A DNA stretch of 64,000 nt, taken from positions 112,801-176,800 of the forward strand of contig JABLUY010000045.1 of the NCBI GenBank assembly GCA_013306675.1, written 5' to 3'. Every line of letters begins with the position of its first letter. The first letter of the stretch is position 1. Positions 7,079 to 11,870 of the stretch are shown in pieces. This stretch comes from Thraustochytrium sp. TN22 (lineage: Eukaryota; Sar; Bigyra; Thraustochytrida; Thraustochytriidae). The translations under genes and the position numbers were made by a program. The notes below the pieces were generated by a model. That model did not search any database. It had not been told where the DNA came from and was given only the letters and a program-made list of their open reading frames with translations.

Positions 7079-7082
7079 ATAA

Positions 7083-7096
7083 CCCAATCACACCTC
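7083..7096 (+). repeat. Candidate left terminal inverted repeat
   Basis: CCCAATCACACCTC, preceded by ATAA. It pairs with the reverse complement of the segment at 9406-9419. Confidence 0.4.
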
Positions 7097-7346
7097 TATG
7101 CTTACTCGTATCCGCCTACCACGCGGGGGTCCCTCGGTGACGCCCGGCACAGGGGGCACTAAAGCGTATTAAGAGGGTACTTTACTCCCGATTTGCTCCA
7201 AAAAAGTGGCCTAGAGTCTGGCGAAGTTAGTTCCGCATTCGATCAAAAACGCAGCGATGGGGCCGAGCTTGAAGAGGCCCACTCGAAGCGACCCAAGGCT
7301 CCTGCCCCCTATTCATTTTGGCCGAAGGCGTGGTGGTTAGGATGAG

Positions 7347-9213
7347 ATGAGCTCGGCAGTTCGCCCAGAGCGGCTTTGGGGGGAGCTCGCGCGCGACTTC
7401 GTCGCGGAGCGCGCTGGAGCCGCAGGCGCTGCGGCGCGCGGCTGCAGGCGGCCCTGGCGGGTGCCTTGTGCCTGCTCTCAGCTCGCACGCCCCTGCCGCA
7501 GCGCTTGGACGTGGAGTCGGGCCCGCACTGCGACATCATGGCATCGGCGAGGCCTAACCACCGCGTGGAGGACGACAGCGACAGCGACAGCGACAGCGAG
7601 TTCGTGCCCCTGGACAAGCGGGACACAGGGGACGAAGACGAAGAAGGAGAGGAGCTTGGCGACGAGGATGCTCGTGCTGAGGCCGCTGCGCAGCAAGACT
7701 TCGAAGACATACTTGCGTTGGTCGACGAACCGACGCGTGGTGCGAGTGCATGTTCGAGGTCGGCCTCATTCAGCACAAGACCGTTCCGGGGCTCGCAGTC
7801 TCGCCGGATGGAGTCGCTCGCGTCCGGCTTCCAGGCGCGGAGTGCGACGCATCGTCAGTACTATGCAGCGTCGAGATCAAGACGCGCGTCGCGCCTGGAG
7901 GCGCGGTAGACGCACGTATCGTGAGCACCCAGATGAACACGTGGGGGACGAGACTTGGTGGAAGGCCATACCTGCCGAGCACCGCGCGCAAGTCTTGCAC
8001 CAAGCTGTGGTCCTCCAAATCGATCACGTGCTCTACGTTGCTGCCAGCACGAGTTCGTGTTTGTACGCCTGCCTCGTTGAAGTGCCTCCGGACGCCCGGC
8101 TCGCCATGGAGCGCGCTCTGAAACCGTGGGCGGACAAGCTCACGACATGGGCGCACCAGAGCATCGACAGCGGGTGCGCCGCCCAAGCCACCTGCCATCT
8201 TCGGCGAGGAGGAGGGGGCGGTGCTGAGCTCGCACTTCCGGCTGTGGCGCGCCATGCGCAAGCTTGTCGCTCTGAAGGGGCCCATGCGGCCCGTGCATGT
8301 CATCAAGTGCTTACCGCAGGAGCTATACAACGTCGCAAAGGGCGGCGTCGACGGAAGCACACAGTACGTGGAGCAGATCACCAACACGCAGTGCATGAAT
8401 CTGAGCTGCGACCAGAACATCGCGTTGCGCACGTACAAGCAGCTCGTTGTCAACGCCATCGTGGTCTACCGCTACTTACAGGCTGCGAGGAAGAGCAACC
8501 TCGAAGACAGCGACGGGCTAAAGGCCCTCCGCGACAAGGTGAACCGCTCTGAAGCGCTCAGCACTGTCTCGTTCCGCCTCACTGTCGACATGGTCCGTCA
8601 CGTCTACAGGAGCAGGCAGCTCGATACGGCGCAGGTGGAGTTCAACATGCAGCCAAGCATGCCCAAGCCCACTGGGCTCACCAGGGAAGCGGCGAGGGAC
8701 CTCGTGACCGCCGGTAAGCGCAAGCGAACCCCCGAGTTGCAGAAGTTCTTCAACCACGGCCAAGCCCGCGACATCCGCCTCGATGCCGCACTGCAACATG
8801 ACTCAGAGGCAGCGGGAAAGGCATCCTTCAACGCCAACACCAAGAGGATTCCCGCCAAGCGGCTCTGCGTCATCTGCGGCAAGCAAACGCACCGTCGTTG
8901 CACCATCTGCGGTGTGCCTCTGCACGTGTTCATGAGAAAGAATGAACGCACAACCTGCTTTTCCAAGTGGCACACGCGCGTGCGCGTCGAGCCTCACGAA
9001 GGCTTCAAGAAGCGCAAGACAAACGTCAACGGAACACCTTCGCCCATTTGCCTCGATCATGTCGATTCGAGCAGCGCCAGTGCCTCGTCCGGTACCCCTA
9101 CAGCGCAGAGCAGGAACGACCACGTAGCCCAAGCCAGCTACACCGACACCCCATCAAGCCATAGTTCAAGATCCTCTCGCAGCAGCCTCAGCACGAGTCC
9201 ATCGTGCCCTTGA
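7347..9213 (+). pseudogene. Broken YqaJ-nuclease / PiggyBac-type transposase-like ORF
   Basis: Protein-like sequence moves through three frames, implying at least three frameshifts. An acidic N-terminus (from the ATG at 7538, DDSDSDSDSEF) is followed from about 7741 by a YqaJ-type PD-(D/E)XK nuclease. It has GLAVSPDG (catalytic Asp), CSVEIKT (E-x-K) and, in the next frame, HRAQVLHQAVVLQ (the conserved Gln helix). The last frame (about 8180-9213) has YNVAKGGVDGSTQY, resembling the GGVD block after the DDE core of PiggyBac transposases. It ends in a Cys/His cluster CVICGKQTHRRCTICGVPLH...CFSKWH like the PiggyBac C-terminal zinc domain. No clear DDE core was found. The nuclease call is strong; the PiggyBac call is moderate. 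Confidence 0.7.
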
Positions 9214-9405
9214 TGCAGCCCAAGTTGGCCTCAGCATCCGCACAGGCCAGTCGGAAGTGACCAACACTTTACGCTTCCATACAAACCCAGTAGTTGAAAG
9301 TTCCAAAAATGATTAGAATCATGATAGCAACAGGTCAGTCGAGCGCAAGCAGGAGAGCCGATTTACTAGGGATAATATGGCTATCCTGATTAAACTCCGT
9401 CTAGG

Positions 9406-9419
9406 GCGATGGGATTGGG
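9406..9419 (-). repeat. Candidate right terminal inverted repeat
   Basis: Reads CCCAATCCCATCGC on the minus strand and is followed on the plus strand by ATAA, the same four bases that precede the left end. Confidence 0.4.
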
Positions 9420-9423
9420 ATAA

Positions 9424-9795: not shown

Positions 9796-9971
9796 CTAGA
9801 AGCGGTCACGCCCGGAGTCTCCGGGAGCAGATTCAGGGTGCTGAGAGGATGCCGTGCGCGACGGACTGCTGGACGGAGCGTAGAGATGCGGAGCGTAGAG
9901 ATGTTGGGCAGGATGTTGGGCTGGTCCTGAGGACGCCCGGCGCGCCTCGGCGAGGTATGAGTTCGCATTAG

Positions 9972-10056
<85 letters not shown>

Positions 10057-11700
10057 CGCAAGCGAGGTGTAGTGCCTTCGCAGGAACTCCTCATGTTGCA
10101 GCGACAGCTGCACCGGGCCATGATTTGACGACATTGAAGGCATGACCTGAGCCTGTGCGGCAACTGTCATGGCCACGTGCAAGGCTTGCGCCTGAGCACT
10201 GAGACGCGCAACCGAATCGTCGAGCTGCGGCGGCGGCTGCTGCGGTTGCCGCGGGTGGTGAGGTTGACCTTGTCGCTGGAAATCCTGGTGCTGCCGTTGT
10301 TGCAACTGCGACTGATAGAGCTGATGCTGGTTCATGCGGTTGGCGAAATCCGGGGCAGCGACGAAGGGCTGATTCGGTGGAACAGGAGCGCCAAGGCCCT
10401 GTAACGTGTGGATGTATTGGAGTCGGAGTGAACGGTCAACCTCTTCAACGTCGGCAGGAAGGAGAGGCAGCCCGAGCGAGGCAGGTGCAGTGACGGAGGA
10501 CGAATCATTTGAGGAATGAGACGAAGAAGAAGACGAGGAGGAGGATGCCGAGGATGCGGCGCCGATGCCCGTGGGGGCGAGGGGGCCCGCAGCGGTGACA
10601 AGAAGGCGGCTGAGGCGGGCAAGGCTCTCACAAATGCCCTCCTCGTGGTGCTGTGCGAGGCGGCCGTCCGGGCTGCTGCCAGCGACCTCCACGATGCGGT
10701 TGACGATCTCTGCGAGCGACTCAATCAGCTTGTCCATTTGGCGGCCCACAGAGGGCTGCGCGATGGCAAGACTGTTGCGCGCTTCAATGGCGATGGGACT
10801 GTCTGCGCTATGGATGGGTTGGGCATCGGTGTGGCGATACGGAAAGGCAGAAAGTACGCGGTTAGCATTGTTGATGCTGTCGAGCGTGGCGTAATAGAAG
10901 GTACGTTGCGAGACACGCGCGATATTATCGGCTGACTCGTCGCGAATGAAGTTACAGACGGCAGTGACGTCCGCGAGGCTGGCGTTGGGGCCCGAGGTGC
11001 TTGAGTTGAACTGCTTGTCGATGAGCACGCAGGCGACATTGATAGCACTCTCGTAGTCCTGCAGGAATTTTTCCTTGAGCTGCGTGAGCACGTGATTTAC
11101 TCCACCGCTTGCGCTGCTGGAGTCACGGCTGATGCCGTAGTAGGAGATGAGGCCGCGCACGACCTTGCGCGCAATGTTGAGGCGGTCTGAGGACAACGTG
11201 CTGGAAGACTCTTCATTGGACCGATTGCCGCGGCGCTGCCGTTTCCGGGTTGGTCGCGTCCGCGCCCGCGCCTGCGCCTGCGCTTGCCCTTGTGCCTGCG
11301 CCTGCTCCTGCGCCTGGGCCTGCGCCTGCACCTGACGCTCTTGGTGATTCTGTTCCGGGCTACGCTGCATGGACTGTGGAGGCAGCGGTAGGGACGAGGC
11401 TTCGGACAGGGCCTGAGAGGAGGCTTGGCGCGCGGAGGCCCCGGAGGCCCCCTCAGCGCCGCTCTCCGTTTCGTCTGCGTTGTCCTTCTTCCTTGGCCGG
11501 CTGGCCTTGCTGCCAATGCGGTTGGTGGCGCCTTCCTTTCGCTGTCCTTGTCGCCCGCTCGAGGTTCTGTCGTCTTTTGCTCGGTTTTTGTTGCTGCTGT
11601 TCGCTTTCGCGCCGCCGCTACTGCTAGCGCTTTCCCTCCCGCTACAGCTGCTATTGCCTTCGTCCTCCTCTGGGACCGACGTCGCGGTTTGGCGATTCAT
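9796..11700 (-). CDS. Polyglutamine-rich hypothetical protein
   Basis: A 634-aa protein of unrecognised function. The N-terminal 180 residues are Ser/Glu/Ala/Gln-rich with a QAQAQ-type run and a basic cluster TRPTRKRQRRGNR that could be a nuclear localisation signal. The middle (about 180-390) is the only ordered-looking part and is helical, including LNIARKVVRGLISYYGIS and MDKLIESLAEIVNRIVEVAG. A poly-Ser tract and a long Gln/Pro/His region follow, with a run of about 28 Gln (9973-10056). The composition resembles nuclear transcriptional co-regulators, but that is inference; no named domain is visible. The ATG at 11700 is the natural start, and strong coding bias begins there. Confidence 0.8.
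9973..10056. repeat. CAG/CTG trinucleotide run encoding polyQ
   Basis: About 28 in-frame glutamine codons, mostly CAG with CAA interruptions (seen as CTG/TTG on the plus strand). Nineteen or so CTG units are uninterrupted, so length variation is likely. Confidence 0.95.
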
Positions 11701-11870
11701 CTTGAGCAGCCTTCACTTTCCGTGGCGAGGCGGTGGGCACGGGCCGGAGAGGCTGCACGCCGGCCGAGCGCTCGAGGTCGGCGCGCCGCGCTGCGTGCAA
11801 TTTCGCTTGCTTCGTATTTGCTTCCTGCCTTGCTACGCGCCCTCGCCATGAATGAAAAGGCGAGGTGAAG

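Follow-up and report, generated by a model that had tools for sequence, protein, structure and literature searches.

Can a nuclease stand in for the catalytic core of a transposon? The question is raised by a locus of Thraustochytrium sp. TN22, at positions 7079 to 9423 of a 64,000-nucleotide stretch of contig JABLUY010000045.1 (assembly GCA_013306675.1, positions 112,801 to 176,800, forward strand). The whole stretch is called the window here and supplies all coordinates. A first-pass annotation had described the locus as a transposon relic that pairs a YqaJ nuclease with a PiggyBac-like C-terminus, the nuclease lying where the DDE core should be. We consider it probable (roughly 0.8) that the locus is instead a young non-autonomous cut-and-paste transposon. 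Its 4,127-bp parent would encode a YqaJ nuclease placed between the second and third catalytic aspartates (D2 and D3) of a PiggyBac-like DDE transposase.

Copies, borders and the full-length parent

The genome assembly searched comprises 37.9 Mb in 453 contigs. Comparison of copies gave the exact borders of a 2,337-bp DNA transposon at 7083-9419 on the plus strand; the span 7079-9423 had been drawn correctly and corresponds to the element plus both target-site duplications (TSDs). Allowing up to three mismatches, 120 left (5') and 133 right (3') ends were found in the genome, while a reversed-pattern control gave 0. For each end 100 places were listed, all of them exact matches. On contigs C1-C410, 75 of the 90 exact 5' ends among the matches listed paired with a 3' end (74 at 2,337 bp, one at 2,341 bp); of the others, 3 were at contig ends and 12 interrupted or unpaired. 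Near-full-length copy pairs were 99.5-99.9% identical to the window element, and the second open reading frame (ORF2, 363 aa) was open, stop-free and 99-100% identical in all 112 genome copies scored (135 first-look candidates). Because of this identity and the uniformly open ORF2, the element is a young, recently multiplied burst and not a relic. The following features were assigned in the window:

7083-9419, plus strand: non-autonomous transposon, internal-deletion derivative of a 4,127-bp element (comparison of copies; parent copies)
7079-7082, no strand: left TSD, ATAA, identical to 9420-9423
9420-9423, no strand: right TSD, ATAA, identical to 7079-7082
7083-7089, plus strand: left terminal inverted repeat (TIR), CCCAATC, 7 bp (copy comparison)
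9413-9419, minus strand: right TIR, GATTGGG on the plus strand (copy comparison)
7538-7734, plus strand: start of ORF1 in frame 2, with Met at 7538 and an acidic Ser/Asp/Glu-rich N-terminus, truncated by the deletion (reading frames)
7734-7735, no strand: junction of the 1,771-bp internal deletion, which took the knuckle-like segment, D1, D2 and the front of YqaJ (alignment to full-length copies)
7735-7940, plus strand: YqaJ-like block, part 1, frame 1, VSPDG (SPDG) at 7798 and CSVEIK at 7864 (motifs and family profile A3)
7940-7941, no strand: 19 bp of the full-length copy absent, coinciding with a switch from frame 1 to frame 3 (alignment to full-length copy)
7941-8174, plus strand: YqaJ-like block, part 2, frame 3, RAQVLHQA at 7983 (motifs)
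8122-9213, plus strand: ORF2, 363 aa, frame 1, with D3 in KGGVD (8338) and the C-terminal part (reading frames, genome copies)
near 8174-8182, plus strand: one-base offset between ORF1 and ORF2, common to window and full-length copies (frame comparison)
8863-8980, plus strand: putative Cys-rich domain (CRD) of the PiggyBac type, C-x2-C, C-x2-C-x-PLH, CF...H (best PDB match of profile A5, piggyBat 9c0f)
9372-9385, no strand: hot spot of self-insertion, roughly 44 bp short of the 3' end, repeatedly hit by other copies (copy comparison, end pairs)

The motifs reported for the locus are all present (SPDG at 7798, EIK at 7864, Q at 7983 in RAQVLHQA, GGVD at 8338, Cys/His residues from 8863 to about 8975). 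Equally, as had been described, the coding path of the window copy is broken, running over three frames, and a DDE core is absent from it. Taken singly and with filters off, the window region could be aligned to an open frame of 1,227 aa at another genomic locus (C151; 96.7 bits), a frame first picked up by a weak PiggyBac Pfam match. A genome-wide search with this frame, in which 38 of 256 candidates were scored, returned copies of the element at E ~2e-15, and longer copies surfaced beside the short ones. The recurrence of ORF2 and these alignments show that the reported pattern is no accident. Four full-length copies of 4,127 bp each were found (contigs C394, C109, C81 and C33), with ATAT on both sides of each; the flank of those on C394 and C81 is partly another copy of the element.

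Compared with C394, the short form differs by one base near the left tip and one base in the right end. Stretches of 1,771 bp and 19 bp are missing from the window copy, which otherwise shows 16 substitutions, nine of them in coding frames, too few changes for a selection test between the two forms to give a result. Each gap coincides with a frame break of the window copy, which has three such breaks; the third, the one-base offset near 8174-8182, is present in all four full-length copies. ORF1 of the full-length form (998 aa) is open in three of the four; that of C33 has one TAG and further changes. Ends are shared with a larger coding element and the interior is gone, and as judged from these alignments the short form is shown to be an internal-deletion derivative of the 4,127-bp element, from which D1, D2 and the front of the YqaJ-like block were removed. 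Inspection led us to reject introns as an explanation for the broken path: relative to the full-length copies, two of its frame changes are deletions, and the third shows no intron-sized gap in the alignment to a related frame on contig C239.

ORF2 might have been kept in the short copies as a truncated DNA-binding protein, consisting of the D3 region and the CRD, that regulates or blocks the transposase at the ends. Deletion-derivative repressors are known from other transposons, and ORF2 is open in every one of the 112 copies scored. It contains the CRD, a domain that contacts end DNA in piggyBac (consulted part of PMC7351741). However, the copies are young enough that an unused frame would remain open, and of the six substitutions that separate the two forms in ORF2, full-length and short, four are non-synonymous. 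We consider such a role unlikely.

Target sites were read on both flanks in 47 copies, 20 of them added for this purpose to 27 from loci analysed otherwise; some lie inside other copies, and on C436 the flank beyond the TSD is masked on one side. All 47 had NTAN on both sides. The left TSD was ATAT in 34, ATAG in 4, ATAA in 3, TTAT in 3 and CTAT in 3, and the four full-length copies add ATAT four more times. Both sides were identical in 40 copies and mismatched in 7, at the outer bases only. The copy at C277:37463 is mismatched at both outer bases (CTAT/ATAG); its two tetranucleotides are reverse complements and not a direct duplication. Mutation is an unlikely source of the mismatches since the copies are near-identical; recombination between copies may have produced them.

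Insertion into other copies left a regular spacing of ends. Among the 99 exact 3' ends listed on C1-C410, ten pairs on the same strand have a distance of exactly 45 bp; they lie on nine contigs (C11, C46, C111, C133, C177, C189, C255, C325 and C349). Six inverted pairs of 5' ends span exactly 4,633 bp (C19, C37, C52, C233, C423 and C426; 100 of the 120 ends listed), and further pairs span 4,639 bp (C61) and 4,678 bp (C18 and C177). The copies on C189, C255 and C349 carry one or two extra 44-bp end stubs, a second exact 5' end not being among those listed for the contig. These stubs look like nested copies collapsed by recombination.

Motif order and domain assignment of the predicted product

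Motif positions of the full-length form were read in one copy; three copies are near-identical and C33 carries the stop. In ORF1, an acidic start is followed by a Cys/His knuckle-like segment (recognized by eye), VIDDELVG (D1), AADRGYS (D2) and a YqaJ-like block with WFVLR, NE, SPDG, VEIK and HRAQ. ORF2, one base out of frame with ORF1, carries KGGVD (D3) and the Cys-rich end. The spacing of D1 and D2 is 77-78 (two adjacent Asp) and D3 lies in GGVD, which at the motif level agrees with the PiggyBac-superfamily pattern of three Asp with D1-D2 near 78 and D3 in GG(V)D. The PD-(D/E)XK motif set of YqaJ and lambda exonuclease consists of an upstream E, the Asp of SPDG, E-x-K and then Q. Its members NE, SPDG, VEIK and HRAQ are all present in the full-length element and in the relative on C239 (L054:900-4538).

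This relative is a single open frame of 1,213 aa with all DDE and YqaJ motifs in the order of the full-length element (D1 at 402/403, D2 at 480, YqaJ at ~632-850, D3 at 938, CRD from 1146). It is apparently single-copy and 42-51% identical to the element segment by segment; no other complete open frame with the full set of motifs was found. D1/D2/D3 and NE...D...EIK are conserved in these two motif-intact members. In piggyBac, the catalytic aspartates are D268, D346 and D447, the last preceded by G444-G445, and an insertion domain (372-433) lies between D2 and D3 (consulted part of PMC7351741). Because the sequence order of D1, D2, YqaJ block and D3 can be matched to piggyBac in this way, the YqaJ-like domain appears to be placed between D2 and D3, in the slot of the piggyBac insertion domain.

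The 1,213-aa frame bears out the proposal that a YqaJ block and a PiggyBac-type C-terminus are linked in one coding unit. The idea that the nuclease replaces the DDE core does not hold, D1 and D2 being preserved ahead of the YqaJ block in the four full-length copies. The first-pass annotation had named, as findings that would overturn it, intact copies with a DDE core merely deleted at this locus or with two separate genes. The former is what the full-length copies revealed; the latter applies in part, D3 and the Cys-rich end occupying a second frame in the full-length copies. The surprise that remains is a nuclease that appears, by motif order, to lie inside the DDE core and not instead of it.

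Profile searches pointed to the same families. The C-terminal profile (A5) had the piggyBat transposase 9c0f as its best PDB match (E 7.8e-4), in agreement with the C-terminal Cys-rich domain of the PiggyBac superfamily. The best PDB match of the YqaJ-block profile was the exonuclease 3syy (E 0.009), with 'uncharacterized protein R354' (E 1.3-1.4) among the five listed; we take both to be lambda-exonuclease-like. Pfam YqaJ (PF09588) matched the cut-out block of the full-length element with E 0.0056 (17.4 bits against a cut-off of 22, positions 47-146 of 150) and a longer piece of it with E 0.043. In a profile-profile comparison (hhalign), the five-member block scored 29.4 against a four-sequence YqaJ profile; the maximum of 100 column shuffles was 22.6, and two further segments of these proteins scored 13-15. 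In the DDE core, Pfam DDE_Tnp_1 matched two of four members (best E 4.7e-4, C239) and DDE_Tnp_1_7 one of four (E 0.0037), both below cut-off. A Pfam search of the window's own frames gave nothing useful. Plain phmmer with C239 against PDB returned low-complexity or chance matches only, and family profiles alone gave usable matches. The domain assignments are thus best described as weak but convergent profile matches combined with intact motifs.

A number of observations speak against the proposed architecture. The domain matches of these proteins all fall short of their curated cut-offs and are individually weak, and Pfam YqaJ matched one of five members (the full-length element, not C239; E up to 10). 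A two-member profile (C239 and full-length element) scored 22.4 against YqaJ, within the range of the shuffles, and under other comparison settings the five-member pair fell to 23.6 with a probability of 3%. The whole-family profile returned an Ala-rich ribosomal protein first in PDB (E 0.0017), ahead of piggyBat (0.003) and 3syy (0.21). The DDE-core profile (A4) found nothing sensible in PDB, and a host PiggyBac gene could be aligned by hhalign in the D1 region only (probability 0.2%). The predicted structure of the window ORF2 alone, from a single sequence, was uninformative (mean predicted local distance difference test score 35.6). To these points are added the lack of an acceptable TIR and TSD within 1 kb of C239, the absence of TTAA from all 47 target sites, and the offset between ORF1 and ORF2 in all four full-length copies, which makes an active source of complete transposase hypothetical.

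The most direct challenge is that the YqaJ similarity is spurious and that an unrelated insertion domain happens to bear SPDG and EIK. All YqaJ matches are indeed weak, the best E being 0.009 in PDB and 0.0056 in Pfam, the latter below cut-off, and the two-member profile fails to beat the shuffles. On a short stretch of the block, SgrT, which we take to be a family unrelated to YqaJ, matches better than YqaJ does (E 0.0006). Three routes nevertheless reach the same family with the motifs in register, and the five-member profile scores above 100 of 100 column shuffles and above both other segments of the same proteins. A chance resemblance is in our judgement improbable.

Relatives and known systems

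Five further related long open frames were found in the genome (L029 on C151, L056 on C232, L055 on C322, L057 on C111 and L101 on C11), the last embedded in a frame of 3,580 aa. Catalytic motifs are wholly or partly lost in all five, and the YqaJ motif set is partly altered in those of C151, C232 and C111. Scanning for TIRs and TSDs within 1 kb of C239, C151, C232, C111 and C322 (for C322 on the right side, the left being the contig end) gave chance-like pairs only, mostly GC-rich; in controls the true ends were recovered at rank 1 for the window element and rank 2 for the full-length one. C239 is possibly a domesticated, still catalytic transposase, and the set of frames looks like repeated domestication of the same transposase within one genome. 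No relatives were found in pattern-matching stretches of viral contigs (searched with C239 and profiles A6 and A7) or of prokaryote genomes (profile A6). Three other PiggyBac-type genes of the same genome exceed the Pfam cut-off (L021, L027 and L028 on C398, C16 and C76); no YqaJ block was seen by eye in their open frames.

With piggyBac and piggyBat the element shares the D1-D2 spacing of 77-78, D3 in GGVD, an insertion between D2 and D3, a C-terminal CRD, a 4-bp TSD centred on TA and CCC ends. It differs in its TSD (NTAN where they have TTAA), in carrying a YqaJ-like nuclease at the insertion position, in an N-terminal knuckle-like segment and in a parental coding region spread over two frames. 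Because the TSD is NTAN, with TTAA in none of the 47 copies, we call the element PiggyBac-like and not a canonical piggyBac element. The Paramecium enzyme PiggyMac is likewise of the PiggyBac type and is required for cuts with a 4-bp spacing around TA, the bases outside the TA being variable; it differs in being domesticated and excising germline segments, and the text consulted does not mention YqaJ (PMC3408717).

The 4-bp AT-rich TSD recalls Kolobok elements (TTAA), and a lambda-exonuclease-like PD-D/ExK partner is known in KolobokE (consulted part of PMC9587614), so membership in the Kolobok superfamily was weighed. Kolobok ends are 5'-RR...YY-3', according to the same text, whereas those of the element run 5'-CCC...GGG-3' (CCCAATC...GATTGGG), the opposite 5'-YY...RR-3' type; piggyBac ends appear as GGG-TTAA-CCC in a hairpin oligonucleotide (consulted part of PMC7351741). 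KolobokE has a Kolobok core with its nuclease downstream of the transposase domain (PMC9587614, same part), whereas here it would lie between D2 and D3, and the TSD is not TTAA. The C-terminal profile, moreover, matches piggyBat, and D3 lies in GGVD. Kolobok membership is very unlikely.

A parallel in architecture is Dada of Laccaria and Ectocarpus, in which an exonuclease domain is inserted after the second catalytic D and before the DxxH motif; its authors proposed a comparable end-processing role (consulted part of PMC3706591). Dada carries a DnaQ exonuclease, whereas the element has a YqaJ-like nuclease in a PiggyBac-like transposase. The TSD of 6-7 bp and insertion into small RNA genes that characterize Dada were not seen here, the TSD being 4 bp and an Rfam search of the window giving no match. 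ISL2EU is a eukaryotic DNA transposon with a YqaJ protein; it differs in encoding YqaJ in its own ORF and in having a PIF/Harbinger-related DDE domain and a 2-bp AT TSD (consulted part of PMC4482050). Neither the AT TSD nor a separate YqaJ ORF was found in the element.

Exonuclease-carrying DDE transposons are thus already known in Dada, KolobokD, KolobokE and ISL2EU (consulted parts of PMC3706591, PMC9587614 and PMC4482050). No description of a YqaJ domain within a PiggyBac-like core, or of a nuclease paired with piggyBac, was found in the open-access literature; PMC7826175 and PMC13289751 mention both YqaJ and piggyBac, and the parts consulted do not describe a fusion. A third paper, PMC11403445, also contains both terms. 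If the domain reading is true, the repeated recruitment of exonucleases by DDE transposons would extend to PiggyBac-like enzymes and into the insertion slot of the catalytic core. A natural PiggyBac-like system on NTAN instead of TTAA would also have the cut geometry of Paramecium genome rearrangement.

A possible mechanism

The parent product would comprise an acidic N-terminus, a knuckle-like segment, D1, D2, a YqaJ domain (lambda-exonuclease-like PD-(D/E)XK), D3 in GGVD and, at the C-terminus, a Cys-rich domain that binds DNA. Both ends are retained in the short copies, which would be mobilised in trans. That the deleted form is itself the working element, with the nuclease in place of the DDE core, is scarcely credible: it is far commoner, accounting for 75 of the 90 exact 5' ends listed when only four full-length copies were found, but a frame change interrupts its YqaJ block, from which the front part bearing the NE motif is gone, D1 and D2 are missing, and full-length copies with nearly the same ends exist.

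Under the reading of an internally deleted derivative, the parental enzyme would cut and join with a 4-bp stagger about a central TA, as do piggyBac (TTAA) and PiggyMac (NTAN). YqaJ relatives digest DNA from 5' ends. The YqaJ domain would be an active nuclease next to the DDE site; its simplest task would be to trim 5' NTAN flaps from the excised ends. In piggyBac, a 4-nt overhang remains once the hairpin is opened, and strand transfer turns it into a flap (consulted part of PMC7351741). A complete transposase might be produced by frameshifting between ORF1 and ORF2 or supplied by a relative such as C239; assembly from two parts or a missed copy are other candidate sources.

A more far-reaching version may be entertained, although we regard it as doubtful. 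Here a two-nuclease transposase would, as a single polypeptide, both cut the DNA and trim NTAN flaps with the active YqaJ 5'-end nuclease in its insertion slot, and the 7 of 47 mismatched duplications would be untrimmed flap bases of the donor. Complete enzyme would come only from a +1 frameshift between ORF1 and ORF2, which would act as a throttle, and the short copies would parasitise the enzyme and favour each other's 3' ends. A fresh burst with mismatched target duplications makes such flap processing testable.

The window as a whole has a G+C content of about 67%. Just past the right end of the element, a 638-aa open frame with a long CAG/polyglutamine run lies at 9796-11712 on the minus strand.
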